This document shows, one piece after another, positions 12,724-29,964 of a stretch of 64,000 bases of DNA (within the stretch, counting starts at the first letter, position 1; every line of letters starts with the position of its first letter). The notes beneath the pieces were generated by a model. The model ran no database searches. It worked only from the letters and a program-made list of their open reading frames with translations, and had not been told where the DNA came from. This stretch comes from an uncultured Pseudomonadales bacterium (GTDB taxonomy: Bacteria > Pseudomonadota > Gammaproteobacteria > Pseudomonadales > Porticoccaceae), in assembly GCA_943846685.1 (NCBI GenBank), contig OX044363.1, positions 1,654,001 through 1,718,000 on the forward strand, given 5' to 3'. A program made the position numbers and the translations under genes.

Positions 12724-13293
12724 CTAAACCGTTACCGCTTTCTCTTCAGTATTGACCAAAGTTAGCAGAAAGCGCTCTGTTGATCCGCTCTTATCATCAA
12801 GGCTTTCCCTACGCACCAGTATCTTTTCACCGTAGTACGCAGCACAACCCTGAATAAGCCCCTCAGCCACATCACCCATACAGCGGGGTGACTGATAGAT
12901 AACTTCCATACTGTTGTCGGTATAGTCAGTGCACTTGAAAGTTGGCGGCGACGCATCCGGGTAAAGTTTTTTTACCTCACCATGAATAAAACCATCGACC
13001 TTGTGTAACAGCGCAAAAGAGGAGTGAAGACCATCGATCCACTGGGGATAGGCGGCAATTAGCTCGGCAAACAGATACATGCCAAAGGTTTTGGTCAGGT
13101 GTACCACCGAGACATTAATCTTTTTGCTCAGCACCACAATCATATCGATCAGCTCAGTGTGATCGTAATTGCCAACCGTGGTGTAAATACCCCCGCTTGC
13201 AGGGGCGGCTTCGGCGATAACCTCATCAACCATCTCGAGTCCGTACTGTTCTTCAACCAGATACAGAAACGATGTAAATAACATCCCTTTCAT
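12724..13293 (-). CDS. H-NOX heme NO-binding protein (canonical)
   Basis: 189 residues, one complete H-NOX domain starting with MKG. The proximal heme ligand is present (H104 in FIHGEVKKLYPDA), as is the heme-propionate motif YxSxR (YQSPR, residues 133-137). Such proteins bind NO, and sometimes O2, through a cytosolic ferrous heme and signal to kinases or diguanylate cyclases. No kinase or cyclase gene adjoins this copy; the narI remnant lies upstream. The only H-NOX-type kinase in the window lies 6 kb away beside a second, heme-ligand-less H-NOX. Cross-talk between the two is possible but unproven. Confidence 0.93.
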   Translation of the reverse strand: MKGMLFTSFLYLVEEQYGLEMVDEVIAEAAPASGGIYTTVGNYDHTELIDMIVVLSKKINVSVVHLTKTFGMYLFAELIAAYPQWIDGLHSSFALLHKVDGFIHGEVKKLYPDASPPTFKCTDYTDNSMEVIYQSPRCMGDVAEGLIQGCAAYYGEKILVRRESLDDKSGSTERFLLTLVNTEEKAVTV

Positions 13294-14052: not shown

Positions 14053-15520
14053 CTACCCAGCCTCCTGCACACGATTATAATTATCACTAAACCGCACAAT
14101 ATCATCCTCACCCAAATAGCAGCCACTCTGCACCTCAATCAACTGCAATGGCAAACTCCCCGGATTCGTTAAACGATGACGCTGACCAATCTGGATATAC
14201 ACCGACTCATTCTCAGAGACCAACTCCTCTTTCCCATCGCGCTCAACCAAGGCTGTACCAGTCACCACAATCCAATGCTCCGCCCGATAATGATGCATCT
14301 GCAAAGATAAACTCTCACCGGGATTAACCTTAATCAGCTTCACCTGAAACCGGTGCCCCTGACCGATGGAATCGTAACTGCCCCATGGGCGCATAACCTC
14401 GCGATGAGAGAGATGCTCAGTTCTGCCCTGCTGATCCAAACGGGCAACCAGACTTTTAACCTCCTGAACACGGCTCTTATCGGCAACAAGAATCGCATCC
14501 TTAGTATCCACAACAATTAAATCCTCCACCCCAATGGCAGCAATCAAACGCCCATCGCTCTGAAAGAAACTTCCCTTACAATCCTCAGCAAGCACATCCC
14601 CCCACTGACATTTTATCAACATCCTTTTCAGCCGCCTCCCACATCGCCGACCAGTTGCCGAGATCTTTCCAGCTACTGTACAGCGGAACCAACCAGGCAT
14701 TGTCTGTCTTCTCCATAATGGCGTAATCAATAGAGTCACTGGGGCAGAGATCAAACGCCTGCTCCGAGAGTCGAATAACCCCCACCTCAAGCACCGACCG
14801 GCGGTAGGCTCTCTGGCAGTGAAAAAACATCTCCGATTGCAGCTCTTCTAACTCTTTTAGATAGGCACTGGCTTTAAACACAAACATGCCACTGTTCCAA
14901 AAGTAATCACCACTGCTGAGATATTGTTCAGCGGTGGTCAAGTCTGGCTTCTCAACAAACTGCTCTATCCTCTCCCCCTCGGAGATTGATCCACCAGACC
15001 CACCAGCAACCTTGATATAACCAAAACCTGTATCCGCCACCGATGGCGGCACGCCAAAAGTAACCAGCTTGCCGCTGTCTGCAAGTTCCAGTGCCGCTTC
15101 TAAGGCAACCTGGAAAGCCTCCTGATCGCCAATTAAATGATCAGCCGGCTGAACGAGAAGAATCGGATCAGTGCCCTGTGAAAGCGCCTTAAATGCCGCC
15201 ACAGCAATCGCAGGTGCAGTATTGCGTGCAATCGGCTCAACAATGATCGTCGCGCTGCAGTTGACCTCCTGAAGCTGGCTGGCAATCATAAAGCGCTGTT
15301 CCTCATTGCACACCACAATGGGGCTTTGCAGGTTCGCAACGCGGCTTACAGTGCGCTGTAGCATAGAGTCTTCACCATTGAGCTTTAACAGCTGCTTGGG
15401 CATTTTCTTGCGGGATTTAGGCCACAGTCGAGTGCCATTGCCTCCCGAGAGAATCACTGGCACGACATTTTTTATCAGCGGCTGATCACCTGTTTCAGAT
15501 TGTTCAATTTCCCTATCCAT
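14053..15520 (-). CDS. algA: Mannose-1-phosphate guanylyltransferase / mannose-6-phosphate isomerase (apparent +1 frameshift)
   Basis: The N-terminal part (from 15520) has the GDP-mannose pyrophosphorylase signature LSGGNGTRLWP and runs to a premature stop at 14585. The rest, including the cupin isomerase domain (MRPWGSYDSI ... LSLQMHHYRAEHWIVVTGTA), continues in another frame to 14053. The break falls at a run of six C on the plus strand (14598-14603); five would restore a 488-residue protein, the normal size. AlgA makes mannose 6-phosphate into mannose 1-phosphate's precursor pool and then GDP-mannose, the alginate precursor. A homopolymer error is the likeliest cause, though slippage-based on/off switching is conceivable. 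algD lies 32 bp upstream. Confidence 0.87.
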
Positions 15521-15552
15521 ACTTCCTCCCTATATTTTTTAAAAAGTCCTTA

Positions 15553-17136
15553 TTACCAACAAATTCCCTGGCAGTTTTTTGCGTACTTAAATGAATTGCC
15601 CAGTCCCACCAGATCGACCACTGGCATAAAGCCCTCGGCCAGATGGGCAGCGCCCCTTCCGTAATCAGTATTGTGACCGACCACCAACATATCGGTGGTG
15701 TTTACCAACTGCTCAATATTCAGGCACCGCGAATAACTCAGCTGCCGCTCTACGCCCATTTTCAATAGGTCTTCAGAGGCGACATTGGGGTCGAAATAGC
15801 GAATATCGTGTCCGCGCTCGCGCAGCTGTCTCACCAGCTCTAACAGCGGACTTTCGCGCATATCATCTGTATGCGCCTTAAAGGTAAGGCCAACTATGCC
15901 GATACGCTTTACCTTGCAGGCGGTAATCATCGATAGCGCGTGTTCTATATGGCGGTCATTGGAATTAAGAATGCTGTCAATTAACGGGGTGCTAACGCTG
16001 TTATCCGCAGCCAAATTCATAATGCCGCGAGTATCTTTCGGCAGGCAGGAGCCACCAAAGGCAAAGCCTGGTCTCAGGTAGTAGGGAGACAGATTAAGCT
16101 TGGTATCCTTAACAAAAATATTCATTACCTGATGACTGTCGACGCCCATCGCTTTACACAGGCGCCCCACCTCATTGCCAAAACCGACTTTCAGGCCATG
16201 CCAGGTATTGTCGATATATTTAACAAATTCAGCCGCCTCAATAGTGGTTTCAATCAACTCACCGGAAAGACCCTTGTAAAGCTCGGCTACAGCGGCTGAA
16301 CTGCGCTGATCCACAGCGCCAATCACGGTTTTCGGCGGCTCATAGAAATCTTTGATCGCGCTGCTCTCGCGCAAAAACTCCGGGTTAAAACAGACGCCGA
16401 AATCCCTGCCGGAAAACTTCCCAGAGGCTTTTTCCAGAATCGGTATTAAAATATCGCGGGTTGTTTTAGGTGGCACAGTGCTGCGGAATACCACCACATG
16501 GTAATCGTCTTTAACCGCCAGAGCCGAGCCAATCTGCTCCGCAGCCATACGTAAGTATTTAAGGTCGCACTCACCATCGGGCCCGGCTGGGGTGCCGACA
16601 CAGACCATGGTTATATCGGACTCCATAACCGCTTTGCGTGGTTCACAGATAGCCTCGAGACGACCCACCCGCCGCGCATTGTCCAGCAAGTCTGCCAGGC
16701 CCTCCTCGACAATTGGTGACTCACCGCGGTTTAACGTCGCAATTTTCTCAACGTCCGGGTCGACACCAATCACTGAATGACCTCGATGTGAAAAACAGGC
16801 AGCGGAGACAGCCCCCACATACCCCAGCCCGAGAATACTGATGGTTGGTTTTGCTGCGATCTCTGCAATTTGTCCGGAGTCGAGCTCAAGAAGATCGAGC
16901 TTAAAGCTTATGGGGCTGTCATTAGCCGCTGGGGAAGGATTGATATCCAGTTCCGATTTGACGGTTACTTCAGGTAATGATTGAGCTGTCGATTTAAGCG
17001 GCTCTTTAAGTGGCTCTTTAAGTGGCGCTTTAAATATTTGCGAACTCTGCTCAGCCGGGCTCAGCTGGCTATTTTTTTCGGCAAGGGAAATCTCGCCGGG
17101 GTTTACCGCTATCTCTAATCCATTTTTATTTAACAT
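15553..17136 (-). CDS. algD: GDP-mannose 6-dehydrogenase with N-terminal extension
   Basis: The Rossmann motif ISILGLGYVGAV, the PEFLRE motif and the catalytic-cysteine motif FAFGGSCLPKD identify a nucleotide-sugar dehydrogenase; the overall pattern is closest to AlgD. It oxidises GDP-mannose to GDP-mannuronate, the committed step of alginate synthesis. The Rossmann fold begins only about 95 residues after the chosen start. The extension is low-complexity and contains a tandem PLKE repeat. The longest frame starts at 17205, but a sigma54 element (17207-17222) sits right there, and its transcript would begin downstream of that ATG. The ATG at 17136, with AGGGAG five bases upstream, is therefore preferred. 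Confidence 0.88.
   Translation of the reverse strand: MLNKNGLEIAVNPGEISLAEKNSQLSPAEQSSQIFKAPLKEPLKEPLKSTAQSLPEVTVKSELDINPSPAANDSPISFKLDLLELDSGQIAEIAAKPTISILGLGYVGAVSAACFSHRGHSVIGVDPDVEKIATLNRGESPIVEEGLADLLDNARRVGRLEAICEPRKAVMESDITMVCVGTPAGPDGECDLKYLRMAAEQIGSALAVKDDYHVVVFRSTVPPKTTRDILIPILEKASGKFSGRDFGVCFNPEFLRESSAIKDFYEPPKTVIGAVDQRSSAAVAELYKGLSGELIETTIEAAEFVKYIDNTWHGLKVGFGNEVGRLCKAMGVDSHQVMNIFVKDTKLNLSPYYLRPGFAFGGSCLPKDTRGIMNLAADNSVSTPLIDSILNSNDRHIEHALSMITACKVKRIGIVGLTFKAHTDDMRESPLLELVRQLRERGHDIRYFDPNVASEDLLKMGVERQLSYSRCLNIEQLVNTTDMLVVGHNTDYGRGAAHLAEGFMPVVDLVGLGNSFKYAKNCQGICW
16998..17033 (-). repeat. 12-bp tandem repeat, three copies, in algD (PLKE)
   Basis: Three near-identical copies of GTGGCTCTTTAA on the plus strand encode PLKE-type repeats in the N-terminal extension. 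The frame is preserved. Confidence 0.9.
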
Positions 17137-17206
17137 CATTACTCCCTGTGGCATGGCAGCCGTCGTTGATGATTCTGAAATGACATACGTGCTGTCATAG
17201 ATCATC

Positions 17207-17222
17207 GCAAACTCTGTGCCAA
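17207..17222 (-). promoter_or_regulatory. Sigma54 promoter of algD
   Basis: On the minus strand the sequence is TTGGCACAGAGTTTGC, an exact TTGGC-N7-TTGC match with GG and GC ten bases apart. Transcription would start near 17195, leaving a leader of about 60 bases before the preferred algD ATG at 17136. Confidence 0.8.
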
Positions 17223-17320
17223 CTAATTTAAGGAAGTATATTTAGTATATTTATTAGACAGTTATGAGATTATATTGATAATATACATTAATTTATAAGT
17301 GAAGCACCATTGAAGACTTT

Positions 17321-17336
17321 TGCAATATGCATTGCA
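17321..17336. promoter_or_regulatory. Perfect TGCAAT-N4-ATTGCA dyad, candidate activator site
   Basis: It lies about 100 bp upstream of the algD -24 element, the usual distance for a sigma54 activator site. Related half-sites (GCATTGCA near 26750-26760) occur between the algI and alg44 promoters. Binding by the NtrC-type regulator of this locus is inferred. Confidence 0.38.
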
Positions 17337-17358
17337 CAACGCCATCGCAAAATAAGAA

Positions 17359-18903
17359 TCACCAGTGCTTCTGCTTGCGGTAAATGGTCGAGGGACTTAC
17401 CTCCAGCAGTGCCGCCGCCTTGGGTATATTGCCGCCACAGCTGGCAATGGCATCTTCAATAGTATTTTTCTCCACCTGCCACAGAGGTTGCACCCCGCCG
17501 CTACCTGAAGCCAAAGAGCCATTAGCCTGTCTTAATAAAGAGCCATCAGCGTCTTTTAATGAAGAGGAGCCCTCAGCGTCTTTTAATAAAGAGCCCTCAG
17601 CATCTCTTAACAAGGAGCCCTCAGCGTCTTTTAATGAAGAGTACGAGCCCTCAGCGTCTTTTAATGAAGAGTACGAGCCCTCAGCATCTCTTAACAAGGA
17701 GCCCTCAGCATCTTTTAATAAAGATCCTCCCTCAATCGCCGAACCAAGCATCGCCCCATCAACAATCCGCTGATCAGCAAGCACCACAATACTATGAACA
17801 AGATTCTCCAACTGACGCACATTGCCCGGCCAGGGGTACTGGCGCAGAAATACCTCAGCATCCTCACTAAAACCGTTAAACACCTTACTCTCCTGTCGAG
17901 CAAAGAAGCGCAAAAAGTACTCAGCCATAATCACCACATCATCGCCGCGATCGCGCAACGGCGGCAATTGCAAAGGAATAACATTGAGACGGTAGTAGAG
18001 ATCTTCACGAAACTGGCCAAGCTCAACCGCTTTCGCAAGCGTAGTAGACGAAGCCGTCAACAACTGGGCGACAAACGGATAGCTCTGATGGCTACCGACC
18101 GGCGAGAACTCGCGCTCCTGAATAACCCGCAGCAACTTCGCCTGCAGAGACAGAGGCAAAGTAGTTACCTCATCGAGAAACAGCGTGCCCTGTCCCGCTG
18201 CCGCCATCAATCCCTGATGATCCGCCGTGGCGCCGGTAAAGGCACCCTTCATATGACCAAACAGCTGTGACTCAATCAGGTTCTCATTAAAGTTTGCACA
18301 GTTTATGGCAATAAAAGGCTGCGACTTTCTCGGGCTTTCCAAATGGCAGGCCCTGGCAACCAACTCTTTACCTGTTCCAGTCTCACCAGAAATAAAGATA
18401 GGAATATTGGCTCTCGCCGATTTTGTAATTCGTTCAAACAGACGGTACATAGCCGGATTGGCACTGTGCATACCGTGAAAATCAGTCGTCACAGAGGTGT
18501 TTTTTTCGCCGCTAAAACCAAACAGCCCCTGCTCTCTCAGTGCCGCAGTAACCACCATACGCAATTCATTATTATCCCAGGGTTTGCTGATAAAGCGATC
18601 GATAATACGGCGGTTAAAGGCATCCGAGAGTGATTCAAGATCACTGTAACCACTGAGAATAATCGTGTGAATATCCGGCCAGATGGTTTTTATCTCACTG
18701 AGCATCTGGCTGCCCTGCATTATCGGCATACGCTGATCGGAAATCACTAGATCCGGACGATTCTCTGCGGCAAATTCCAGTGCCTGCTGTGGGCAGCTGT
18801 AATCCACCAGATTAACACCTAGTCTTGCCAGACAGCGTGTAAGTGATGAGAGCACGCGCCGCTCATCATCGACCAGCAGTATAGTAGGTTGACTATTACT
18901 CAT
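17359..18903 (-). CDS. Sigma54-dependent NtrC-family response regulator
   Basis: Domain order: receiver (about residues 8-120, phospho-acceptor Asp in DLVISDQRMP, conserved Lys in ISKPWD); AAA+ with Walker A GETGTGKE, sigma54 loop GAFTGA, Walker B GTLFLDE and arginine finger FREDLYYRLN; and a C-terminal Fis helix-turn-helix (IPKAAALLEVSPSTIYRK). Between AAA+ and Fis lies an unusual linker of about eight GSLLKDAE-type repeats. ATG at 18903 is chosen because GGAGGG precedes it; upstream in-frame starts lack one. It lies next to its likely kinase and within the alginate locus, whose promoters are sigma54-type. Confidence 0.93.
   Translation of the reverse strand: MSNSQPTILLVDDERRVLSSLTRCLARLGVNLVDYSCPQQALEFAAENRPDLVISDQRMPIMQGSQMLSEIKTIWPDIHTIILSGYSDLESLSDAFNRRIIDRFISKPWDNNELRMVVTAALREQGLFGFSGEKNTSVTTDFHGMHSANPAMYRLFERITKSARANIPIFISGETGTGKELVARACHLESPRKSQPFIAINCANFNENLIESQLFGHMKGAFTGATADHQGLMAAAGQGTLFLDEVTTLPLSLQAKLLRVIQEREFSPVGSHQSYPFVAQLLTASSTTLAKAVELGQFREDLYYRLNVIPLQLPPLRDRGDDVVIMAEYFLRFFARQESKVFNGFSEDAEVFLRQYPWPGNVRQLENLVHSIVVLADQRIVDGAMLGSAIEGGSLLKDAEGSLLRDAEGSYSSLKDAEGSYSSLKDAEGSLLRDAEGSLLKDAEGSSSLKDADGSLLRQANGSLASGSGGVQPLWQVEKNTIEDAIASCGGNIPKAAALLEVSPSTIYRKQKHW
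17529..17730 (-). repeat. 24-30-bp tandem repeat encoding a GSLLKDAE linker
   Basis: About eight imperfect units such as GAGCCCTCAGCGTCTTTTAA on the plus strand encode a Ser/Asp/Glu-rich linker between the AAA+ and DNA-binding domains. Some units carry an extra two codons (SY insertion), so unit length varies in steps of three. Confidence 0.92.
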
Positions 18904-19102
18904 TTCGGACAGGTCCCTCCTGTTTAATTTTTGACGTTCACAAATAGCGCGATCTGTTACTGCTATTGCTCCTGAACAATCAAAATGCTTCCTGCAAAAA
19001 TTCTGCAATTATTTTTTATTCTTGGTAATTTTTATTATTCCTCTATTTTTTAGTTGCTCAATGGCAGATTGTCAAATCGACAAAAGCTTGCAAGCGAGCG
19101 GT

Positions 19103-20137
19103 TTAACTCAACCCGGCGATCGGCAACAGAACTCTAAACGAAGCTCCGCAGCCCTCTTTGCTGCTGACATGGATCTCACCGCCATGCATATCAATCGCGC
19201 CTTTCACCACATGCAGACCCAGACCTGTGCCCTTGCCAATTTCCTTAGTGGTAAAAAATGGATCGAATATTTTTGCCAGATCTTTCTCGGCAATACCGCA
19301 GCCATTATCGCTAATTTCAATCCACACCATCTCCCCCTCCCGGCCAGTGGAAACAGTAATCAAACCGCGTTCCTTTATTGCCTGAGCGGCATTGACCAGC
19401 AGGTTGAGAAACACCTGCCCAACCTTGCCGCCATGACAGACAACTGCGGGAATCTCCGCCAGATACAACTCTATATCGGCCTTATACTTAAGTTCACTGG
19501 AGGCTATATTTATGGTCTTTTGCAGGAGAGTATTAATATCCTCCGGACTGGCTTGAAGCTCACTCAGATAGGAGAAATCCGAGAGATCAGCAACGATCTG
19601 CTTAACCCGCTCGGCACCTTCAATCGAGTCGCCAATTAACTGATCTATATCTGGTAATAAAAAGTTGGGGTTAACCTTATGGGTAAAGGCCCGCAGATTA
19701 TCTAGGCTGCTTATAGTTGCAGTATCTGACAAATCGCCATTTTTCGAGCCCTCAGCGGCAAACATCTCAAGAGCTTGCGCCTGCAGATCAAGCAACTTGC
19801 GTAACTCAACCATATAGTCACTCAGGCTATCCAGATTACTGGCGACAAACCCAACCGGGTTATTGATTTCATGGGCCACTCCGGCAGCTAGCTGACCAAT
19901 CACCGCCATCTTTTCCGACTGGACTAATTGCTGGCGTGTCTCCTGCAACTCAAGCACCTGTTTCTGCAGGTGACGGCTCTGCTCGGCAATCTTTTGGTTG
20001 CGCAGATAGAGCTCTTGATTGCTCTGATAGAGTTCGCGGCTTTTCTCTTCGAGAAGTTGCTCAGCCTGATTGCGAGCCGCAATTTCACGACGCAATTTAT
20101 TTTCCAACAGTTGAGGATAACTGGCTTTCTCAATCAT
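19103..20137 (-). CDS. Histidine kinase associated with H-NOX-like protein
   Basis: 344 residues, soluble. A long N-terminal coiled coil (about residues 15-75, rich in E, Q, L) precedes the phosphoacceptor segment AAGVAHEINNPVGFVASNL and a complete HATPase domain (N box NLLVNAAQAI, G boxes DNGCGIAEKDL and GKGTGLGLHV). No membrane or PAS sensor domain is present, as in H-NOX-associated kinases that take their signal from a separate H-NOX protein. The gene upstream (81 bp away) encodes an H-NOX-like protein and the gene downstream the sigma54 response regulator. The three therefore form a sensor-kinase-activator set. Confidence 0.92.
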   Translation of the reverse strand: MIEKASYPQLLENKLRREIAARNQAEQLLEEKSRELYQSNQELYLRNQKIAEQSRHLQKQVLELQETRQQLVQSEKMAVIGQLAAGVAHEINNPVGFVASNLDSLSDYMVELRKLLDLQAQALEMFAAEGSKNGDLSDTATISSLDNLRAFTHKVNPNFLLPDIDQLIGDSIEGAERVKQIVADLSDFSYLSELQASPEDINTLLQKTINIASSELKYKADIELYLAEIPAVVCHGGKVGQVFLNLLVNAAQAIKERGLITVSTGREGEMVWIEISDNGCGIAEKDLAKIFDPFFTTKEIGKGTGLGLHVVKGAIDMHGGEIHVSSKEGCGASFRVLLPIAGLS

Positions 20138-20218
20138 TTATAGGCACAAAATAATTGTCGGGTAAAGCCTGCAAAAACAACTGCCCATTCATGGCACTCT
20201 AACTCCTTATTTAAAAAA

Positions 20219-20785
20219 TTAATCGGTTAAAATTCTATTGTTACATCTACGCCTTAAAAAAAACCGCAGGTTAAAATCAACCGGTTGCTCGTATTTTTTC
20301 GACTCAATATAAAAGTTTTCGTTGTAATGAATAATCGCAGCAGACATTAAACCTTCGGCAACATCTGCAGGCATAAATGGCGACTTATAGCTAATCTCTA
20401 AAATATCTGGATTAATTTCAATGCAATTAAATGATGGTGCTATAAACCCTGGAAATGCTTCTTCTATAGCCTTATTAAGCAGAACATCATGACTTTTAAG
20501 TAACTCAAATGTATTTTTAGCCTGCCCAACCCAGAATGGATTTAGCGACGATAGCTCAGCAAAAAGATTTACCCCAAGAATCTTTGATAGCTTACTGCTC
20601 GGCATATCAAGCAATTCTGCGGCGCGCTCAAGCAACTGGAACAGGGTATTGTCTGGGTAATCAGCCACGGGAGAATAGACGCCTCCCAGCGGCATTCCGT
20701 ACTTATCCATTAAGTCAAAGACCAGCTGTTCATCAAATTGCTTTTCCAGAAAATCAAATACACCAGTAAGAACAAAACCTTTCAC
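20219..20785 (-). CDS. H-NOX-like sensor lacking the heme-ligating histidine
   Basis: 188 residues, one H-NOX-family (HNOB) domain beginning MKG, with the family's GGVYSPVADYPDNTL segment. Ungapped comparison with the canonical copy at 12724 places Asn at the proximal heme ligand (N104 in VLLNKAIEEAFPG versus H104). It also turns the YxSxR motif into YKSPF (residues 133-137), losing the Arg that grips the heme propionates. It probably cannot bind heme in the standard way. It is followed directly by the coiled-coil kinase and the sigma54 regulator, inside an alginate locus. A ligand other than heme-NO, or a purely protein-protein role, is inferred. Confidence 0.88.
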   Translation of the reverse strand: MKGFVLTGVFDFLEKQFDEQLVFDLMDKYGMPLGGVYSPVADYPDNTLFQLLERAAELLDMPSSKLSKILGVNLFAELSSLNPFWVGQAKNTFELLKSHDVLLNKAIEEAFPGFIAPSFNCIEINPDILEISYKSPFMPADVAEGLMSAAIIHYNENFYIESKKYEQPVDFNLRFFLRRRCNNRILTD

Positions 20786-20936
20786 AAAGGAGTCCTTTTA
20801 TTTAAAAACTTAAATTAATTCATTTATGTATAGATCATTTATATGTTAACAGCAAATTTAGTTTTGTAAAAATTTATTATTAATTAGCCTAACTTTGGAT
20901 TCTCAGGGGCTGGCAGGGACTGTGAATTTGAACCAT

Positions 20937-22094
20937 TTACAGCTGATACTGCAAACCTAATTCGACTATCTGCCGCTGATATCCAAGTACCTCGACTGAG
21001 TTGTATTCAACCTCCCTGCGCAGAGTAACCAATCCTCTCAGTGACCTAAACCCCAGCTGCTGACTGTAGACAAACTCGGCTATCAGTCCTTTTCTGTGAC
21101 CGCCAGAGCTTCCAGTTTCTGATTCCTCAGGTGATAATTGCTGATTCAAATAGCCTCGCCAGTAAGCCTGACCATTGATTTCAATATTGGCACCGCTGTC
21201 GAGCTGATAGTTAAGACTGGCTGTAAGCCTGTGATAATCGAGGTCCCGACTGCCCTGGCCATTGTCACGGGCAAAGTAGCCGCTGAGATAAAATGAGCTG
21301 TCGAGATTTTCATTTAGCGCTTTACTGAAAACAGCGCCATAACCATTTAGTGAGTATTCCAGCAGTGATGATCCGCCCTCTGGATCAGTGCCAAGATCAT
21401 TGTGCAGAGCACTGTACTTGCGTGATTTATGATAGATAAAAAGTCGTAGATTAGCGCCGGATTCTGCCTTGTAGCGGAAACTCGGCTGCAGGCGAAACTC
21501 GTTAAAATCTAGAGGCTCAAGTCCAACATCCCTATAATCCTCTCGATAGTTGCGCTGACCCACCTGGGTTAGCAGCGACCAGGAGTGTTTTTTATCGGCG
21601 TAATAAACCAGCTCCGCACTCAAACTCAGCGCATCGAAACTAAAGCGATTGTCGATCAGATCTCCATCGCTGGTCTCTGCTATTTGCCGTTGAGTCTGGC
21701 TGTAGTAGGTATTTCGCTCACTGCGTATATCCCCACTGAGCATAAGATTGGCCTTCTTTTCAGCGAACTTAAAGCGCCCTATCCACCGCAGATGACCATC
21801 AAATCGTGAATTGTCAGCGGCCCTACTGCTGCGATTGTAAATGTCTTTTTGCAAGCCCAGCCGATAACGTAAATTGGCTTTTTTTGCATTGCCTTGGTTA
21901 GGGCGATGGCTAGGGCGATGATGAGATCGATGGTTATCGCCCTGATAGTTGAGGGTTAAGACTTTGTATTCTGCAGCACCCTGAACAGCCTCCGGCGATG
22001 AGATTTTGTAGGGATTACTGTCGTAGCCAATACCGACAAAGACACTCAGCTGATCCTCTGCAGCGGCCCCAATAGCTGCACTGCTGAAAAGCAT
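20937..22094 (-). CDS. Predicted outer-membrane beta-barrel of the alginate locus
   Basis: About 385 residues. The N-terminus is signal-peptide-like (AVMLFSSAAIGAAA|ED) but short at the only ATG. The frame is open back into the end of algX, so the true start may be an upstream non-ATG codon. Mature protein: many alternating-hydrophobicity strands rich in aromatic and charged residues (LRYRLGL, LSAELVYY, FRLQPSFRYKA) and a C-terminal aromatic/hydrophobic strand ending LGLQYQL, as in porin-like barrels. It is not recognisably AlgE (about 490 residues). Its place after algX suggests it is the exporter or an accessory of it. A His-rich loop (HRSHHRPSHRP) is notable. Confidence 0.72.
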   Translation of the reverse strand: MLFSSAAIGAAAEDQLSVFVGIGYDSNPYKISSPEAVQGAAEYKVLTLNYQGDNHRSHHRPSHRPNQGNAKKANLRYRLGLQKDIYNRSSRAADNSRFDGHLRWIGRFKFAEKKANLMLSGDIRSERNTYYSQTQRQIAETSDGDLIDNRFSFDALSLSAELVYYADKKHSWSLLTQVGQRNYREDYRDVGLEPLDFNEFRLQPSFRYKAESGANLRLFIYHKSRKYSALHNDLGTDPEGGSSLLEYSLNGYGAVFSKALNENLDSSFYLSGYFARDNGQGSRDLDYHRLTASLNYQLDSGANIEINGQAYWRGYLNQQLSPEESETGSSGGHRKGLIAEFVYSQQLGFRSLRGLVTLRREVEYNSVEVLGYQRQIVELGLQYQL

Positions 22095-22111
22095 TACGGC
22101 AAGAGCGTCTC

Positions 22112-23167
22112 TTAGCTTGATAACTGGCCCCCAGATTTTCTATCCGTCTCAATGCTGTGCAGATATTGTAGAATCTCGTCAAAAAAGACCTGATCATTAA
22201 GCGAGTAGTAACCGGGAAATTCCCAGACCAGCACTCTCGGCGGCGAGCGTTGAAACGCCTCACTGCTCAGGTAATCTTTTAGTGCGCCACCAAAACCACC
22301 ACCACTTCTGGCTTTATTGTTGACGCCGGCACCCACATAGTGAGCGAGAAAACCGGCAAAATTAAGGCTCAGGCTACCTTGGCTATTGCTGGTACCTACA
22401 AGCACTATCTGCGGTTCGGTTAAATCGGCAAATAGATCATCACTGTCCCTGAGCACTGTCTGGTAAAGTTTAAAAGGCTCTTTGGGATAGGACTGCTGAC
22501 AGAGCTCCAGTGCCGCGCGCTGCAAACTGCCATGGTTGTGATCCTTACCCACGCCATAACTTTCAAACTTTTGCTTTTCAATACCCGAGTAAACCCTGTC
22601 AGCTTTAATCGAATGGGCCGTTAGTCTGGCAATGGTTCGCGCGCCGTGGTGATTCCAATGATGATCGCGGGCAAAGAACAGCGGCTTGGTTTGGGTTTGC
22701 GCAAACAGGCTTTCAATATTCGGCACCACAATCATGCTGTCGCGCAATTTCTGCAGATAATTACTATAGGACCTGCGAGCCCGCGGCACATCGTAATTAA
22801 TCTCACCCAGATACTCCGGATGAATCAGCGGGCGGCCGGGAATTGGCACCATAACAAGGGTTGTCCCCCTGGCCTGGAGTGCCTGCTGTAACTGCTGCAA
22901 ATTTTTATAGCCAGGCTGTCTGGGGCCGTAGGTGCGCTTAAAATCCATATTGCGGTACAGCCAACCGCCCTGACCTTTTTGCAGGGTTTTAAAATTCTTG
23001 AGAAATTTACTGTGGTAACTTTCCGGTCGATCAGCTGCATCACAGACGGTACTTTTCTCGTCTGGCGGATTTAGAGCATTGGCTGCAGCGCAAGTGAGCA
23101 GGCTCAGCACTAATATCTGCACTAGCCTGCAACAAACTTTCGCTCTATAAGTTTTATAGGCTGACAT
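22112..23167 (-). CDS. algX: AlgX-like alginate O-acetyltransferase, lacking the C-terminal CBM
   Basis: 351 residues with a signal peptide (LVLSLLTCAAANA). The SGNH-like domain has the FARDHHWNHHGA motif (catalytic Asp-His) and VLVGTSNSQGS (nucleophile Ser). Pseudomonas AlgX is about 470 residues because of a C-terminal carbohydrate-binding module; this protein ends after the catalytic domain (VWEFPGYYSLNDQVF). It would transfer acetyl to polymannuronate in the periplasm. The start abuts the algF stop, and the barrel gene follows, all on one strand. AlgJ-like identity is possible, but a separate AlgJ homologue exists two genes upstream. Confidence 0.83.
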   Translation of the reverse strand: MSAYKTYRAKVCCRLVQILVLSLLTCAAANALNPPDEKSTVCDAADRPESYHSKFLKNFKTLQKGQGGWLYRNMDFKRTYGPRQPGYKNLQQLQQALQARGTTLVMVPIPGRPLIHPEYLGEINYDVPRARRSYSNYLQKLRDSMIVVPNIESLFAQTQTKPLFFARDHHWNHHGARTIARLTAHSIKADRVYSGIEKQKFESYGVGKDHNHGSLQRAALELCQQSYPKEPFKLYQTVLRDSDDLFADLTEPQIVLVGTSNSQGSLSLNFAGFLAHYVGAGVNNKARSGGGFGGALKDYLSSEAFQRSPPRVLVWEFPGYYSLNDQVFFDEILQYLHSIETDRKSGGQLSS

Positions 23168-23836
23168 TTAACGATCCCCCATACTATTCGCCCAGCGGGC
23201 AACTATTCCGCTGTGCTCAGCACAGATAAACAGGCTCGATAAAACACCGGCTTGAAAAATCATCGGATCAGTAGCAGCGAGATTCTCTCTCTCGCCAGCA
23301 CTGCTACCCACCACCACAAATGCGCTTTTAAGCGGATTGATCGCTCGAGCAACCGACTGCCCCTGAGGAATACCTGCAAATACCGATCTCGCTGACAGAG
23401 CCGTGTTTAAACCCAGGTCCGAGCGCCCGGAAAAGTTGTAGACAGCTAATACCCCACGCCGTGAATCCTCGGCGCGAAAATCCTTAAGAAGTTTTAAGAG
23501 ATTATTCGCAACCACCAGAGAATAGGCCTGATTGGGCTCCAGAGTGCCTTCCCAGAGCATTCCATTGATCTTCTGGCGATACTCACCAGGCTTCACATAG
23601 ATAAACTCAGAGGCACTGCAATAGGCCTCTGCGGATAAACGCTTGTTCTGAAATTTTAACCGCAACTTATTAGACGCCGATTGATCCCGGCCCTGTTCTC
23701 GGAGATCAATAATCCGTATAAATGCCGATCCTTCAGGAGCCAAATCGTATAGCGCCGCTTCATTGGCCAAACTGCCAACGGAGATACCACTCAATAGCAG
23801 AGACACCATTAATTTTATAACCAACGTCTGTTTCAC
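23168..23836 (-). CDS. algF: AlgF-like alginate acetylation protein
   Basis: 222 residues with a signal peptide (LMVSLLLSGISVGSLA). Matches the AlgF pattern: ALYDLAPEGSAFIRI near the mature N-terminus, FIYVKPGEYRQKI in the middle and a second beta domain with AINPLKSAFVVVG. AlgF is a periplasmic adaptor linking AlgI-derived acetyl groups to AlgJ/AlgX. The start codon overlaps the algJ stop (ATGA) and its stop abuts the algX start, showing tight operon organisation. Confidence 0.83.
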   Translation of the reverse strand: MKQTLVIKLMVSLLLSGISVGSLANEAALYDLAPEGSAFIRIIDLREQGRDQSASNKLRLKFQNKRLSAEAYCSASEFIYVKPGEYRQKINGMLWEGTLEPNQAYSLVVANNLLKLLKDFRAEDSRRGVLAVYNFSGRSDLGLNTALSARSVFAGIPQGQSVARAINPLKSAFVVVGSSAGERENLAATDPMIFQAGVLSSLFICAEHSGIVARWANSMGDR

Positions 23837-25047
23837 TGTTTGAACTCCCTATTTGAACTAAAAGTGTTTTTATCGGGTTTACTGGCCTGTTCGGAAAAAG
23901 TAAGTGGATGGTCAAGGGAATAAGCAAGCGGGTAAGCAATAGCCAGATAGCGTTCGGGAATTTCCCAGATCACTAACTTTAAGTTGTCTGCCGAAGGTAA
24001 ATAATCATTTAAAAAATTGGCCATAGGCATGATTGGCCCCTGCCCCTGCTCAGCCAGATTTTGTATATCAACTGTCAGCGCCTGCTTTAAAGCACCATCA
24101 AAATTCCAGCGCCGATCGGCACTAAAGCTGGTTCCCAACAGCACCACCTCCGGAAGAGTGACGAACGGATCCTCCAGCGACCCCAGCTCTTCAAACAGAT
24201 CAGTTGCAAATAGCTGGTCATTGTCGACGAGATAAGTCTGAGCTAAGCCCATTGTCTCTGCTGCTGGCATCAGCCCGTCAAACAGCGGGGACAGCGGCAG
24301 AAAGCGCAACAAGTCGCCCTCGAGAGCCTGCTCACCAATGGTCTCGGTGATAAAACGCTGCTGGTGCAAGCTCAACTGAGGTAAGTGCTTATAAAAAAGC
24401 CTGGCGGCACCAGAGGCAATTACCTGTGCGCCCTCAGGTGTCCAATGGGTATCGGTCTTAAAATAGAGTGATTCAGGCTGAGACTGAGCACGCATTTCTC
24501 GCAAGCCGTCCACCGTGAGAATATGCTTATCTCGAAGTGTATTAATCACCTGGGGGTAAAGGTCTCTATGAATTGTCGCTGGCTGGTGAGCGCCTGTCTG
24601 GCGTTCCAACAGCCTTGCCTTTGCAGGGATCAGTACGACCATCAAACCCACACCATGACTGGCCAACTGGCGAGATGCCAAATCAATAAATTGAATATTG
24701 TTGTCTACTGCCTGAGCAGCGCCCACAGGGGCAATAAATTCTTCATCGGAAAAAAGCCATCCATTGCTGCCGATCAACAGGCCTTTTTTTGCCTGATTAA
24801 ACAGTAGATATTTAAACGCCGTCCACACATTGAGACCAATCTGTTGCAGCGAGAACTCTTCATCGTATTGCTGCTCAAAATCTCGGGCTATGTCACCGCT
24901 GAGGAAGGACTTCTGGTTATAGTATTGCTCTGCTTGATCCTGCCACCCCAAATTCCCCCAGGTAGTAATACTGGCACCAAATACCAGCGTTAAAAATAAT
25001 GCGATAAGCAGTTTATTAACAAGCTGTTTATTAACAAGCTCTGACAT
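23833..25047 (-). CDS. algJ: AlgJ-like alginate O-acetyltransferase
   Basis: 404 residues with an N-terminal membrane anchor (LLIALFLTLVFGASI). The SGNH-like fold has KTDTHWTPEGA (catalytic Asp-His) and VVLLGTSFSADRRW (nucleophile Ser). AlgJ takes acetyl groups moved across the membrane by AlgI. The first residues repeat (LVNKQLVNKLL), from a 15-bp DNA duplication at 25006-25035. It lies 9 bp after algI and overlaps algF by four bases. Confidence 0.86.
   Translation of the reverse strand: MSELVNKQLVNKLLIALFLTLVFGASITTWGNLGWQDQAEQYYNQKSFLSGDIARDFEQQYDEEFSLQQIGLNVWTAFKYLLFNQAKKGLLIGSNGWLFSDEEFIAPVGAAQAVDNNIQFIDLASRQLASHGVGLMVVLIPAKARLLERQTGAHQPATIHRDLYPQVINTLRDKHILTVDGLREMRAQSQPESLYFKTDTHWTPEGAQVIASGAARLFYKHLPQLSLHQQRFITETIGEQALEGDLLRFLPLSPLFDGLMPAAETMGLAQTYLVDNDQLFATDLFEELGSLEDPFVTLPEVVLLGTSFSADRRWNFDGALKQALTVDIQNLAEQGQGPIMPMANFLNDYLPSADNLKLVIWEIPERYLAIAYPLAYSLDHPLTFSEQASKPDKNTFSSNREFKQ
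25006..25035 (-). repeat. 15-bp direct duplication at the algJ N-terminus
   Basis: AAGCAGTTTATTAAC is followed directly by AAGCTGTTTATTAAC. The frame is kept and five residues are duplicated. Confidence 0.9.
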
Positions 25048-25056
25048 TAAAACCCC

Positions 25057-26547
25057 TTAAAACTGAAAGTAGAGAAAAGCAGAATAACTCTCTGCTGATA
25101 ACTTAAAGATTGCCAAGATAAATACTGGTACCAGTAAAAATGCATAGCCCGTAGATAGATAGCCTGTAGATAAGGAGCCTCTTGATAAGGAGCGTATGGG
25201 GAGCTGACTGCGCTGCTCGGTTTGAGGGTAATCAATCCTCTCAAGCTGGCGCTGATACAATCCTCGAACAATAATCAGCAACCAGGCCAGTAGCAGTGTG
25301 GCAATCTGCAGAGCATTGACCTGCCCCCCATAGACTGGACTAAATTGCAGGCTTTGAGTTATGGATAGCGGCTCAATATTGACCATCGCGCTAAAAATAA
25401 TAAACGCCTGACCAAGGCTTTCGGCACGAAATACCACCCAGCCGAGCATGACTAACAGCAGACACAGCAGCCAGCGCAATGGCGAGAATTTCTCGCCAGA
25501 AGTGTCAACGCCAAGGGCTTTCTCCATGGCTAATAGGCATCCATGCCAGGCACCCCAAACTAAAAATGTCCAGTTGGCGCCATGCCATAAGCCACCCAGC
25601 AGCATGGTCAAAAACAGATTGCGATAAGTGATTATTTGGCCGCGCCGATTGCCGCCCAAAGGGATATACAGATAATCCCGCAACCAGCTTGAGAGACTGA
25701 TATGCCAGCGCCGCCAGAACTCGGTAATCGACTGACTGATATAGGGGTGAGAAAAGTTTTCCATAAAGCGAAAGCCCATCATCAAGCCCAAGCCAATCGC
25801 CATATCCGCATAACCGGAGAAGTCAAAATAGAGCTGCGCGGTATAGGCCAATACCGCTAGCCAGGCATCTAAAAAGCTCGGGTCCTGCAGTGCAAAACCC
25901 TGATTAACCAGAGGTGCCAAACTGTCGGCGATAATCACCTTTTTAATAAACCCGAGCATAAAACGCTGAACGCCCTGAGCGAATTTATCCACAGTATGAC
26001 TGCGTTGGGTAAACTGATCGGCAATATCTTTGTAGCGCAGCACCGGCCCGGCAATCAGCTGCGGAAACAGAGCAATAAAAGCAGCGAAGTCGATAATATT
26101 TTCCGTGGCTGGGGTATCACCCCGATAGACATCAATGATGTAACTGATCGCCTGAAAAATATAAAACGAAATACCGATGGGCAGGATAACAACAGTTAAT
26201 AACCAGGGATCCAATCCCAGCTCAACCATCGCGGCATTAACCGTGGCAACACCAAAATTGGCGTATTTAAAATAACCCAGAGCGGAGAGGTTTGCGCAGA
26301 TACCAACCGTAACCCACTGTCGCGCTCGCTTGGAACCGCTCACCGAACTGGAGATACCTCGGCCTATATAATAGTTCCACAGGGTAACAGCGATAAATAA
26401 CAGCAGGAAATCAACCCGCCACCAGGCATAAAAAATATAGCTGCCAATCAGTATTACCCAGGAGCGTTTACGCTCTGGCGTTAAATAATAAAACGTCAAA
26501 AATATCGGTAAAAAAAAGAATAAAAAAATATTGCTGGAAAAAACCAT
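25057..26547 (-). CDS. algI: AlgI-type membrane-bound O-acyltransferase (MBOAT)
   Basis: 496 residues with about 11-12 hydrophobic segments. The MBOAT core is clear: YFDFSGYADMAIGLGLM, FWRRWHISLSSWLRDYLYIPLGG, and MLLGGLWHGANWTFLVWG with the invariant catalytic His. It moves acetyl groups from a cytosolic donor across the inner membrane for alginate O-acetylation. It heads the leftward algI-algJ-algF-algX set behind a sigma54 element at 26652-26667. Near the C-terminus a 15-bp repeat gives LSTGYLSTGY. Confidence 0.92.
   Translation of the reverse strand: MVFSSNIFLFFFLPIFLTFYYLTPERKRSWVILIGSYIFYAWWRVDFLLLFIAVTLWNYYIGRGISSSVSGSKRARQWVTVGICANLSALGYFKYANFGVATVNAAMVELGLDPWLLTVVILPIGISFYIFQAISYIIDVYRGDTPATENIIDFAAFIALFPQLIAGPVLRYKDIADQFTQRSHTVDKFAQGVQRFMLGFIKKVIIADSLAPLVNQGFALQDPSFLDAWLAVLAYTAQLYFDFSGYADMAIGLGLMMGFRFMENFSHPYISQSITEFWRRWHISLSSWLRDYLYIPLGGNRRGQIITYRNLFLTMLLGGLWHGANWTFLVWGAWHGCLLAMEKALGVDTSGEKFSPLRWLLCLLLVMLGWVVFRAESLGQAFIIFSAMVNIEPLSITQSLQFSPVYGGQVNALQIATLLLAWLLIIVRGLYQRQLERIDYPQTEQRSQLPIRSLSRGSLSTGYLSTGYAFLLVPVFILAIFKLSAESYSAFLYFQF
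25151..25195 (-). repeat. 15-bp tandem repeat, three imperfect copies, in algI (LSTGY)
   Basis: Units GTAGATAGATAGCCT, GTAGATAAGGAGCCT and CTTGATAAGGAGCGT lie head to tail and keep the frame. They encode a periplasmic or loop segment before the last transmembrane helix. Confidence 0.85.
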
Positions 26548-26651
26548 TCCCTTTCAAATCCTTTGAATGCACGTTACTTTTTATTGGCTACCCAAACTTT
26601 TAATTTAAGCTTGCTATATAAGCCTATTTAATAATCCCTATTATGGGCCTA

Positions 26652-26667
26652 GCAAATGCTAGGCCAA
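26652..26667 (-). promoter_or_regulatory. Sigma54 promoter of the algI operon
   Basis: On the minus strand the sequence is TTGGCCTAGCATTTGC, an exact TTGGC-N7-TTGC match. Transcription would start near 26640, giving a leader of about 93 bases to algI. The same bases also form a small palindrome (GGCCTAGC/GCTAGGCC), which could matter for binding. Confidence 0.78.
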
Positions 26668-26937: not shown

Positions 26938-26953
26938 TTGGCGCAAAAATTGC
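26938..26953 (+). promoter_or_regulatory. Sigma54 promoter of alg44-alg8
   Basis: TTGGCGCAAAAATTGC is an exact TTGGC-N7-TTGC match, with GG at 26940-26941 and GC at 26952-26953. Transcription would start near 26965, about 58 bases before the alg44 start. Confidence 0.8.
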
Positions 26954-27022: not shown

Positions 27023-28393
27023 TTGGAAATTACCCGTGAAAAGGCCTGTCAGCGATTACATCATAGAGTCGCAACGCCGCTAAATTTAATGACCGACAAG
27101 CGTCACTACCGTGCCGTGGATTGGAGTCTGGGCGGCTTTAGAGTGCGTGACTGGGATCGCTGGAATGATGCTATAGAGATTGGCGATCAGTTATCATGGA
27201 AATTCGAACTGCCCTTTCAGGGCTTTATGATTGCCTTTGACGTTATCGCTGAAGTGGTGCGAAGCAACCCTGAGACGGGCCATTTTGCCTGCAGGTTTGT
27301 CGACTTGAACGAACGCCAAAAAGAGTTGATGAATCATTTTATTGAACAGCTGATTCGCGGCGCGATGATTCCCCTTAAAGATACTATTCTGCGTATCGAT
27401 TCCCCGGTAACCCCAGTCTCGACTGAACCCAATGCCAGCCCGGTTGCACAGTTGCCCATCTCGCGGATTCCAAGGCGAATGCTAATGATGTCGCTGTTCT
27501 ATATTAGTCTGGGTATCGGCTTATTGGGTCTGTTAACCCTAACCCTGTATGAAAACTTTCTGACCCTGAAAGTCAATACAGCGACGACCTCGGTGCCTGT
27601 TGAGACCATTGTTTCACTGGTCGACGGGCGCATTACCAGAGTTTCCAGCATTATTGATCAACCGGTTTCCGAGGGTACGACAATACTCAGCATTGAGTCG
27701 CCGATATTACAAAAGCAAATTGCCGAGGCAAAAACCCATATCGAGCAAAAAAAGCTCGAACTCGAGGCGCAGCGCAAACGCTATCTAGTGGCTATCGAAA
27801 CCTCTGGCTCTATGACCAGCCGCGAGGCTCGCCTGTTACAGATCGATATAGATCTGGTCGAACAGGAAGTCAGCCTAGCTATGCGTGACCTGCTTGCCCT
27901 CTACGAGTATCAGGAGAATCTTTCGATACTCTCACCCAGTGATGGCCGAGTTGTGCAGCTGCTACGTGAGCGCGGTGCCATGGTTAAGCGCGGTGAAACT
28001 CTGGGTGTCTTTGAACGTGCCGAGGCGCCGGTGGTGAATGTATTTGTCACCGAACAGGAGGCGCGCTTAATCCACCTTAACCAATTGACTCAGGTGCACC
28101 TGCCAAGCTTGAATCAACACTGGCTGGGTTCTGTTAGCGATATCAAAATAGAAACCCTGAGGTCCACTGCACAACAGCTCAGCTATCATTCTGAAAGCTT
28201 ATCTGAGCGATATATTCAGATAGAAATTGAACTGCAAATGAACAGTTCCGATGCCCTTCACCTGCGCTCTGGTCTTCCTGTGGAGGTGCGCTTTGCCACC
28301 TCGCGGATAAGTCAGACTGTACTAAAATACCTTGCCAATAAAGAGCGAGCGGATTCTACCGACCACCAGAGTTTATCTCAGCAGGCACTGTGA
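27023..28393 (+). CDS. alg44: Alg44: PilZ c-di-GMP receptor fused to a periplasmic membrane-fusion domain
   Basis: 456 residues starting with TTG (GGAAGG at 27008-27013 is its ribosome-binding site). The N-terminal PilZ domain keeps both c-di-GMP motifs: R-x3-R (QRLHHR) and DWSLGG. One transmembrane helix follows (about residues 155-180), then an HlyD-like periplasmic part with a coiled coil (AEAKTHIEQKKLELEAQRKR) and a lipoyl/barrel-sandwich segment. Alg44 activates the Alg8 polymerase when c-di-GMP binds. Control at two levels, sigma54 transcription and c-di-GMP, is implied. The stop overlaps the alg8 start. Confidence 0.92.
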   Translation: MEITREKACQRLHHRVATPLNLMTDKRHYRAVDWSLGGFRVRDWDRWNDAIEIGDQLSWKFELPFQGFMIAFDVIAEVVRSNPETGHFACRFVDLNERQKELMNHFIEQLIRGAMIPLKDTILRIDSPVTPVSTEPNASPVAQLPISRIPRRMLMMSLFYISLGIGLLGLLTLTLYENFLTLKVNTATTSVPVETIVSLVDGRITRVSSIIDQPVSEGTTILSIESPILQKQIAEAKTHIEQKKLELEAQRKRYLVAIETSGSMTSREARLLQIDIDLVEQEVSLAMRDLLALYEYQENLSILSPSDGRVVQLLRERGAMVKRGETLGVFERAEAPVVNVFVTEQEARLIHLNQLTQVHLPSLNQHWLGSVSDIKIETLRSTAQQLSYHSESLSERYIQIEIELQMNSSDALHLRSGLPVEVRFATSRISQTVLKYLANKERADSTDHQSLSQQAL

Positions 28394-29964
28394 ACAGCGG
28401 CAAATCAAATCGCGATTACAGTGCCCTGATCAGCGGTGAACTCTATGTTGATAAGCCGAAAAAATGGCATAGCAAAGCGCGTCTTCAATTAGCGGCCTAT
28501 ATCATTGTCTGCCTACTGCTGATTCTTTTGCTGCCGAATAAGCTCTGGCAGCCCGAACTTAAGACCGTCACTATTACTCTCGGGACACTTGGCATTTGGC
28601 GTTACAGCTGGTGGTTTGTGCATGTGCTGCGCTCGGAGTTTTATCAACATCGACGCTTCCCACAGATCCGCGCCAATGCGGATCAAGTCTGGCGCGATGG
28701 CTGGCGACCGCGGCATATGCATTTTATGATGACCACTTTTCGCGAACGCCGCGAGACCACCGAGCTGGTTATTCAGAGTATCTGTCGCGAGGTTGAAGAA
28801 GCTGGCGTGCCCTGCACTCTGTGGCTGGGCTCCGGCGATGCCTATGATGAAGATATCATCATGACCTATCTGCGCCAGCACGCTAAACATCTGCCGCTGG
28901 AATTTATAATGATCCGTCAGAATCTCTCTGGCAAACGAATGGCCATAGGATTGGTATTGCGGGCTATGTCGCGCAGGGGTATTCACAAGGATGACCTGAT
29001 TGTATTTATGGATGGTGATGCGGTGTTGGCGCCGGGGATTTTGCGCAAGTGTTGTCCACTGTTTGAAAATGACCCCGAACTGCAGGCCGTCACCACCAAT
29101 GAAGAGGTGATTTGCTATGGCCCAAAATGGATTCAGTCGTGGCTGACCATGCGCTTCTCGCAGCGCAGAATCGCTATGCAATCTCATTCTATGTCTAACA
29201 AAGTATTAACCCTGACCGGGCGTATGTCAGTGTTTCGCGCCAACCATCTAACCCAGTACAATTTTATTCGTATGCTCGAGGCCGATCACCTCTATCACTG
29301 GTTATGGGGAACATTTCGGTTTCTCTCCGGAGACGATAAAAGCACCTGGTATTACATGCTCACCAAGGATGCCAAGATGCTCTATGTGCCCGATGCACTG
29401 GTTTATACCATCGAGGAGATTGAGGGTTCAGGGGTTGAACGAATGACCCAGAACTTTCGCCGCTGGTCGGGCAATATGCTGCGCAATGGCACCAGGGCAC
29501 TGAAGTTGGGGCCGAACAAGATTGGGGGTTTTATCTGGTGGTGTGTGATGGATCAGCGCATCGCGATGTGGACCATGTTGGTGAGTCCTATAGTCGCCAT
29601 AGGCGCCACATTGCTTCACGACCCCTATTATATTGTCTGGTACTTTATCTGGATTGCCATCTCAAGGATGGCGCTGTCGCTATTTCTATTTCGCTACAGC
29701 AACAGCGTGCATATTGAGTGGCCATTTATTCTCTATTTTAACCAGCTGCTAAATGCGGCGGTTAAGGTCTATTGTCTGGCCAGACTGTCTAAACAGCGCT
29801 GGACTAACCGGGGCAATCAGTCATCGGGCAATACCCATACTACAGCCGATAGGCTAAAAGATATGATGGCGACTTACATCACCACCGTATGGGTAACCGG
29901 ATTAATTTTGTCGGTTCTTTTTTACACCCAGTTGCTGCAGTTTCCAGATATACACTATTACTGA
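28390..29964 (+). CDS. alg8: Alg8: alginate (polymannuronate) polymerase, GT2
   Basis: 524 residues, slightly longer than Pseudomonas Alg8 (about 494). It has N-terminal (residues 30-70) and C-terminal membrane helices around a GT2 domain with FMDGDAVLAPG (DxD-type), the TTNEEV segment, SGDDKSTWY and QNFRRW (Q-x2-RW). It polymerises GDP-mannuronate while extruding the chain. The GTG start overlaps the alg44 stop (GTGA). AlgD and AlgA, which make its substrate, are 11-15 kb away on the other strand of the same locus. Confidence 0.92.
   Translation: MNSGKSNRDYSALISGELYVDKPKKWHSKARLQLAAYIIVCLLLILLLPNKLWQPELKTVTITLGTLGIWRYSWWFVHVLRSEFYQHRRFPQIRANADQVWRDGWRPRHMHFMMTTFRERRETTELVIQSICREVEEAGVPCTLWLGSGDAYDEDIIMTYLRQHAKHLPLEFIMIRQNLSGKRMAIGLVLRAMSRRGIHKDDLIVFMDGDAVLAPGILRKCCPLFENDPELQAVTTNEEVICYGPKWIQSWLTMRFSQRRIAMQSHSMSNKVLTLTGRMSVFRANHLTQYNFIRMLEADHLYHWLWGTFRFLSGDDKSTWYYMLTKDAKMLYVPDALVYTIEEIEGSGVERMTQNFRRWSGNMLRNGTRALKLGPNKIGGFIWWCVMDQRIAMWTMLVSPIVAIGATLLHDPYYIVWYFIWIAISRMALSLFLFRYSNSVHIEWPFILYFNQLLNAAVKVYCLARLSKQRWTNRGNQSSGNTHTTADRLKDMMATYITTVWVTGLILSVLFYTQLLQFPDIHYY

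Follow-up and report, generated by a model that had tools for sequence, protein, structure and literature searches.

We found in the window, the whole stretch of 64,000 nucleotides analysed here from an uncultured marine Porticoccaceae bacterium, an intact and conserved homologue of the H-NOX sensors that lacks the standard heme ligand and lies next to an H-NOX-type histidine kinase and a sigma-54 activator, inside a gene set that reads as an alginate biosynthesis cassette (Table 1). On balance, we consider it probable that this variant H-NOX is a heme-independent subunit with an H-NOX fold, which would set an HnoK-type kinase and, through this kinase, an NtrC-type activator and the alginate genes. 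An intact homologue of this kind had been claimed by a first-pass annotation of the same DNA, and the seven intact open reading frames described below bear this out.

Table 1. Genes and regulatory sites around the variant H-NOX gene (window positions)
Feature	Position	Strand	Basis or remark
Canonical heme-type H-NOX (His104, YQSPR)	12724..13293	-	HNOB 126 bits; outside exchanged block
AlgA-like mannose-1-P guanylyltransferase/isomerase	14053..15520	-	two overlapping ORFs
AlgD-like nucleotide-sugar dehydrogenase	15553..17205	-	
Sigma-54 -24/-12 promoter TGGCACAGAGTTTGC ahead of algD	17207..17221	-	motif match
Upstream element TTGCA-N3-TGCAA	17320..17332		1 mismatch
NtrC-type response regulator	17359..19008	-	receiver, sigma-54 AAA+ and Fis-type HTH domains (Pfam)
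Cytosolic coiled-coil histidine kinase, HnoK type	19103..20137	-	Pfam HisKA and HATPase_c; relatives beside heme-type H-NOX genes
Variant H-NOX (HNOB) without proximal His	20219..20785	-	Pfam, alignment, predicted H-NOX fold
Probable outer-membrane protein	20937..22094	-	inferred from place; no Pfam match
AlgX/AlgJ-like SGNH protein	22112..23167	-	PF16822
AlgF	23168..23836	-	PF11182
AlgX/AlgJ-like SGNH protein	23833..25047	-	PF16822
AlgI-like MBOAT acetyltransferase	25057..26547	-	PF03062
Weaker sigma-54-like site ahead of algI operon	26651..26666	-	2 mismatches to TGGCAC-N5-TTGC
Upstream element TTGCA-N3-TGCAA	26753..26765		1 mismatch
Upstream element TTGCA-N3-TGCAA	26784..26796		1 mismatch
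Sigma-54-like site ahead of alg44-alg8	26939..26953	+	1 mismatch
Alg44-like PilZ and HlyD protein	27023..28393	+	divergent from algI side
Alg8-like glycosyltransferase	28390..29964	+	

Residues, fold and selection of the variant H-NOX

The variant gene starts with GTG and encodes 188 amino acids, which match the Pfam profile HNOB (PF07700) with 81.1 bits (E 1.1e-22, cut-off 25.5) and comprise the HNOB domain alone, with no C-terminal PilZ domain in the Pfam scan; NCBIfam gave no match for either this protein or the canonical H-NOX of the window. An ungapped alignment of the two spans 177 residues, 26% of which are identical. An Asn stands at the canonical His104, so the proximal His of a heme sensor is missing, and YKSPF faces the canonical YQSPR, which leaves the YxSxR propionate motif incomplete. 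Both exchanges had been pointed out by the first-pass annotation and are upheld by the alignment as well as by the orthologues. The variant thus carries His99, Asn104, Phe114 and Phe137, and retains Tyr133 and Ser135. An AlphaFold2 model computed with 13 sequences (seven variants and six canonical proteins) supplied the structure prediction which the same annotation had proposed as a check: The variant is predicted to adopt an H-NOX fold (pLDDT 82), and its model matches the solved structures 6bde (Z 21.4, rmsd 2.6, 184 residues) best and 4u9b (Z 20.9) next.

A family search of 112 genomes, 24 of which had any match, yielded variant orthologues in seven genomes of a single genus, namely the source genome (G000) and G059, G040, G053, G052, G013 and G017, with identities to the source protein of 98%, 59%, 52%, 46%, 46% and 43%, respectively. 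The reading frame is intact in each of them, and His99, Asn104 and Phe137 are present in 7/7; a sequencing error as the source of Asn and Phe was rejected, since the residues are common to seven genomes. Among named genome contigs, variant matches came from six loci, all from the same lineages (Pseudomonadales or Porticoccaceae assemblies and strain MOLA455), and a plasmid collection returned 11 records, all below 60% identity, the best among the matches listed reaching 26.9%.

Residues were compared across 66 H-NOX rows, consisting of the seven variants, 58 canonical sequences and one degenerate sequence (L050) that was left out. All 58 canonical rows have His104, and position 137 is Arg (56) or Lys (2); in a looser profile alignment, the second gene of locus L106 shows Glu for His, its His lying one column off. 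Positions 104, 114 and 137 are invariant among the variants and different in at least 85% of the canonical rows, so that the order-wide substitutions affect the heme ligand and the propionate motif as well as position 114, which probably lies near the heme pocket. Three further positions fixed in the variants (45, 56 and 82) differ only in comparison with the 18 canonical rows of the genus, and Tyr133, Ser135, Pro117, Gly71 and Gly145 are common to both groups.

These residues bear on whether the variant still binds heme, another tetrapyrrole or a metal, through His99 or some other residue. His99 occurs in all seven variants and in 0/58 canonical rows, the model helix is interrupted at residue 98, and the invariant Tyr133 and Ser135 have counterparts in sGC beta1 that contact the heme propionates (PMC9914232). 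However, on an ideal helix residues 99 and 104 would point in directions some 140 degrees apart, and the exchanges of Arg137 and Ala114 for Phe may crowd the site, and we therefore regard retained binding as quite unlikely. Redox sensing by cysteine and zinc was considered and rejected: Cys121 is found in six of the seven variants and Cys at two further columns in two of the seven, a pattern unlike a zinc or redox site.

Pairwise dN/dS (NG86) of the variant was 0.125-0.264 in 13 of 21 pairs, with seven pairs not computable; these values are rough, because most dS exceed 1. Canonical H-NOX pairs gave 0.031-0.114 (26 of 28 computable). One variant pair, G052-G013, reached 0.375, versus 0.103 for the canonical H-NOX of the same genomes. 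In both of these genomes the kinase and AlgD are fragmentary and the activator is absent, while the variant frame is intact; the high ratio agrees with a role that depends on the cassette, and would also be expected from relaxing selection or early decay. The variant also evolves faster than the kinase and the activator, and its stem branch in the H-NOX tree measures 2.74. Together with the independently degenerate H-NOX of G038, these values are what a decaying duplicate heading for loss would leave, but we hold such decay to be highly improbable in view of seven intact frames that diverge down to 43% identity, keep the same substitutions and 38 invariant columns, and include a copy carried within an exchanged block (see below). 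The tree suggests that the variant was born by duplication within the genus; with the canonical rows of the genus held as one clade, p-AU was 0.346, the branches are long and the bootstrap is unsettled.

The kinase, the activator and the alginate genes

The kinase gene starts 81 bp downstream of the variant H-NOX, as expected for a gene of the H-NOX/HnoK module, which lies beside an H-NOX-type kinase. The kinase contains the H, N and G boxes, and the activator the GAFTGA loop. That the gene is linked to a kinase of the H-NOX type and to a sigma-54 activator, another claim of the first-pass annotation, is substantiated by gene order and Pfam domains, and the proposed search for orthologues with Asn and Phe beside such genes found the identical order of variant H-NOX, kinase, NtrC-type gene and AlgD in five intact loci (G000, G059, G040, G053 and G017). 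Within the NtrC-type gene of the window, 24-bp tandem repeats (17513-17724) encode a repetitive linker that joins the AAA+ part to the HTH part; G040, G053 and G017 have shorter orthologues.

An order-wide search gave matches in 75 of 390 genomes, from which 40 stretches were taken and the H-NOX gene was placed in 38; the HNOB gene was missing from the simple ORF list of the other two (L105 and L110), whose surroundings were not judged. Kinases beside heme-type H-NOX genes were found at 14 loci, including G094 (locus L051), and match the window kinase with 184-299 bits over most of its length. An NtrC-type regulator (>300 bits, within 3 kb) accompanies five of these 14 (G094, G481, G300, G319 and G178). 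In G094, which belongs to another genus of the same family, the H-NOX has the His and YSSPR, and the group adjoins a similar alginate cluster. In the kinase tree, one clade (100/99) holds the alginate kinases, and orphan kinases of the same genus lie next to it with modest support (90/80). The relatives beside heme H-NOX genes and the tree mark the window kinase as H-NOX type; its structure, predicted without an alignment, was poor (pLDDT 52). Within the genus, five genomes have a match above 400 bits to the alginate kinase, and all five carry the variant. The ancestral sensor of this module was very probably a heme protein, and the sensor of a known H-NOX/kinase module is remodelled in the variant genus.

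The names Alg44, Alg8, AlgI and AlgJ are our assignments from domains and gene order, by analogy to Pseudomonas. The two AlgA-like frames (14585-15520 and 14053-14790) are in different frames and correspond to one 489-aa ORF in G059; a second 489-aa frame with an AlgA isomerase domain is located elsewhere in the source genome. Genome G012 has remnants of AlgA and Alg8 only, beside a canonical H-NOX, and the variant is absent there. Downstream of the cassette lies a very long ORF (30144-36482) with tandem repeats of 9 to 45 bp.

The motif TGGCAC-N5-TTGC has a single exact match in the window, the site ahead of algD, and a site of the same form precedes algD in 5/5 intact loci. The site ahead of the algI operon scored 13.1 out of 16.5 on an ad hoc scale. 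Sites with one mismatch show no enrichment across the window, which has 10 of them against 6.3 expected. A first guess at an upstream element, TGCAWWNNNNWWTGCA with one mismatch, showed no enrichment there either (5 against 4.96 expected) and was dropped. For the element TTGCA-N3-TGCAA with at most one mismatch, nine of ten sites in four loci (G059 was omitted as near-identical) fall into the algD and algI/alg44 promoter regions, and one into the remaining 107 kb. None of 1000 Markov resamplings of the promoter regions reached nine elements, a statistic that is descriptive because the final form of the element was picked after reading these promoters. The exact element occurs at one place in the whole genome, at window position 56384 outside the cassette, and nowhere within the cassette. 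Sigma-54 regulation of the alginate genes is visible at the level of sequence motifs, as a -24/-12 promoter and upstream elements, and rpoN is present in the genome. The output of the variant H-NOX unit is very probably alginate biosynthesis, since promoter and upstream element recur at the alginate promoters of all five intact loci.

Over 16 kb (13873-29875), the window is 97.5% identical to G059, compared to 81-91% in neighbouring window stretches, and this common block includes the variant and excludes the canonical H-NOX. G040, in contrast, matches the window with 89% around the canonical H-NOX, 74-80% over the stretch that runs from algD to the outer-membrane protein gene, and 86% for alg8. 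Because of the high identity of the block against its more diverged flanks, and of the contrast to G040, the alginate block was very probably exchanged between species, likely recently, with the variant and without the canonical H-NOX. Beside the canonical gene, the window holds a C-terminal piece of the gamma subunit of a nitrate reductase (13434-13799). In G037, G013 and G028 a longer narI-like gene occupies this place, followed in G037 and G013 by genes of the size of NarJ, NarH and NarG; the window thus appears to have lost nitrate reductase genes beside its canonical H-NOX.

Proposed mechanism and known systems

The alpha subunit of sGC has an H-NOX domain that keeps the fold without heme beside a heme-bearing sister. 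The heme is carried by beta1 (PMC9914232). By analogy, the variant could be the heme-free partner of the canonical heme H-NOX, with both acting on one kinase and NO still being the signal. The canonical gene is indeed present in all seven variant genomes, versus any HNOB match in 22 of 50 genomes of the genus (relatedness uncorrected), and it directly follows AlgA on the same strand in G053 (70 bp) and G017 (44 bp). Furthermore, the alginate kinase of G000, G059, G040 and G053 matches only itself at E 1e-20 and is thus the only HnoK-type kinase seen in these genomes. Such a partnership nevertheless seems unlikely to us, as the block common with G059 comprises the variant and leaves out the canonical gene, some 144 kb separate the two genes in G059, and the canonical H-NOX is retained in genomes without the alginate cassette. 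The sGC alpha domain also differs in being part of a fused cyclase, whereas the variant is a separate gene.

We would lean slightly against, but still see as a real possibility, that the locus encodes either a bacterial two-subunit NO receptor independent of sGC alpha/beta or an H-NOX pocket refitted for a new small ligand that controls alginate. The former would have two H-NOX proteins, one dedicated and heme-free, the other heme-bearing, act together on one kinase; the latter builds on Asn104, Phe114, Phe137 and His99, with Tyr133 and Ser135 kept.

In the reading that we prefer, a heme-independent subunit acting on the kinase, the variant would have originated from an ordinary heme H-NOX. 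The replacement of His104 by Asn would have cost it iron coordination and that of Arg137 by Phe one propionate anchor, and Phe114 and His99 would have been acquired in the pocket or close to it. It would bind the adjacent HnoK-type kinase and set the output of this kinase onto the adjacent NtrC-type activator, which would in turn bind TTGCA-N3-TGCAA and activate the alginate genes from their sigma-54 promoters. An NO signal, if any, would enter via the separate canonical H-NOX, and the variant itself could either be in a fixed signalling state or respond to a different pocket ligand. The analysis shows the sequence and its conservation, the predicted fold, the gene linkage, and the promoter and upstream motifs; for this pathway we infer the absence of heme, the binding of the kinase, the direction of regulation, the DNA binding and the signal.

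The H-NOX/HnoK systems of Shewanella oneidensis and Vibrio cholerae resemble the arrangement described here in that a stand-alone H-NOX gene lies beside a cytosolic kinase and the output is of the biofilm type, but the variant differs from them by its missing proximal His and incomplete YxSxR. Their outputs are c-di-GMP enzymes, as stated in PMC7108781, whereas that of the variant is apparently a sigma-54 activator with alginate genes. In Shewanella and Vibrio, NO-bound H-NOX inhibits HnoK (PMC7108781), a switch that the variant is not expected to use because it has no iron ligand. The heme-free H-NOX of V. cholerae is similar in that an H-NOX fold is able to act on HnoK without heme, according to the same paper. 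It keeps its His, however, and senses oxidation via cysteines and zinc, whereas the variants lack such a cysteine pattern and the three zinc-binding Cys in the C-terminal half. As for the output, KinB and AlgB of Pseudomonas are a kinase and an NtrC-type regulator for alginate genes, a pairing that we find here too, as read from the genes; the kinase of the window differs in being soluble and linked to an H-NOX.

Loss of the histidine in the wider HNOB family

In PMC7108781 and the review PMC8738867, which repeats the statement, the proximal His is described as absolutely conserved among 598 relatives of the V. cholerae H-NOX. Our own survey comprised 231 different HNOB rows from samples of the genus, family, order, class and phylum, with partial and the weakest phylum matches mostly left out. 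The His was at its column in 164 rows and within two residues of it in 12 (some of them alignment shifts, some apparently true losses), 54 rows had none and one was partial. Besides the seven present variants, the 54 include 47 others, of which 26 come from frames of 404-518 aa, 15 from family f262 of another class, with frames mostly near 200 aa, and six are scattered, including the gene of G038. We consequently rejected the idea that His loss is unique to the present variants, and the first-pass annotation overstated the case where it took ligand loss to be new in itself. The combination of Asn104, Phe137 and His99 was found in the survey only in the seven variants.

Three of the proteins from long frames were scanned, and all contain HNOB and PilZ, one PilZ being below the Pfam cut-off; two lack the His, the third (L292) has it two residues off, and YxSxR is kept in two of three. 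One HNOB-PilZ fusion from a group elsewhere in the phylum (L296:311-1582) has Gln at the His column and retains YxSxR. In f262, an HNOB gene without His or YxSxR (L299:3704-4291) overlaps an HNOBA-GGDEF gene in the one pair scanned. The H-NOX of G038 (L050:9937-10548), from the same genus as the variants, degenerated independently, with Gln for His and YxSxR lost, and family f43 (L106:6057-7523 in G400; also G364) has a different tandem pair of two side-by-side H-NOX genes.

The His-less HNOB-PilZ fusions and the HNOB protein paired with an HNOBA-GGDEF gene share with the variant the absence of His at the heme position; among the stretches read, a part of the total, no HnoK-type kinase was seen beside the His-less genes, whereas the variant is kinase-linked. 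The sole kinase-like match in 20 HNOB stretches had 61 bits and lies near a His-bearing HNOB gene (L295); in five of the 20 (L297, L298, L301, L302 and L311) the HNOB gene was missing from the simple ORF list and the surroundings were not judged. In the literature, apart from the work on V. cholerae, we recognised among the matches listed no account of bacterial H-NOX proteins that lack the His, or that are heme-free and linked to a kinase, and none of H-NOX with alginate or sigma-54 or in SAR92, most subscription papers lying outside the scope of the search. The novelty of the variant is limited by the His-less HNOB proteins already found elsewhere in the phylum, some of which are fused to PilZ and at least one of which has a GGDEF gene as its neighbour.

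H-NOX proteins are commonly treated as a heme protein family. Our survey of sequences suggests that loss of the ligand recurs across the wider HNOB family, and it is thus unsafe to name every HNOB protein an NO sensor. The conserved ligand-less variant in an apparent alginate circuit suggests that the fold can be reused without the gas-sensing cofactor. A conserved clade in which fold, kinase and targets persist without the ligand would uncouple the surface with which H-NOX signals from its chemistry with gases. The variant cassette offers a testable system for H-NOX control of kinases.
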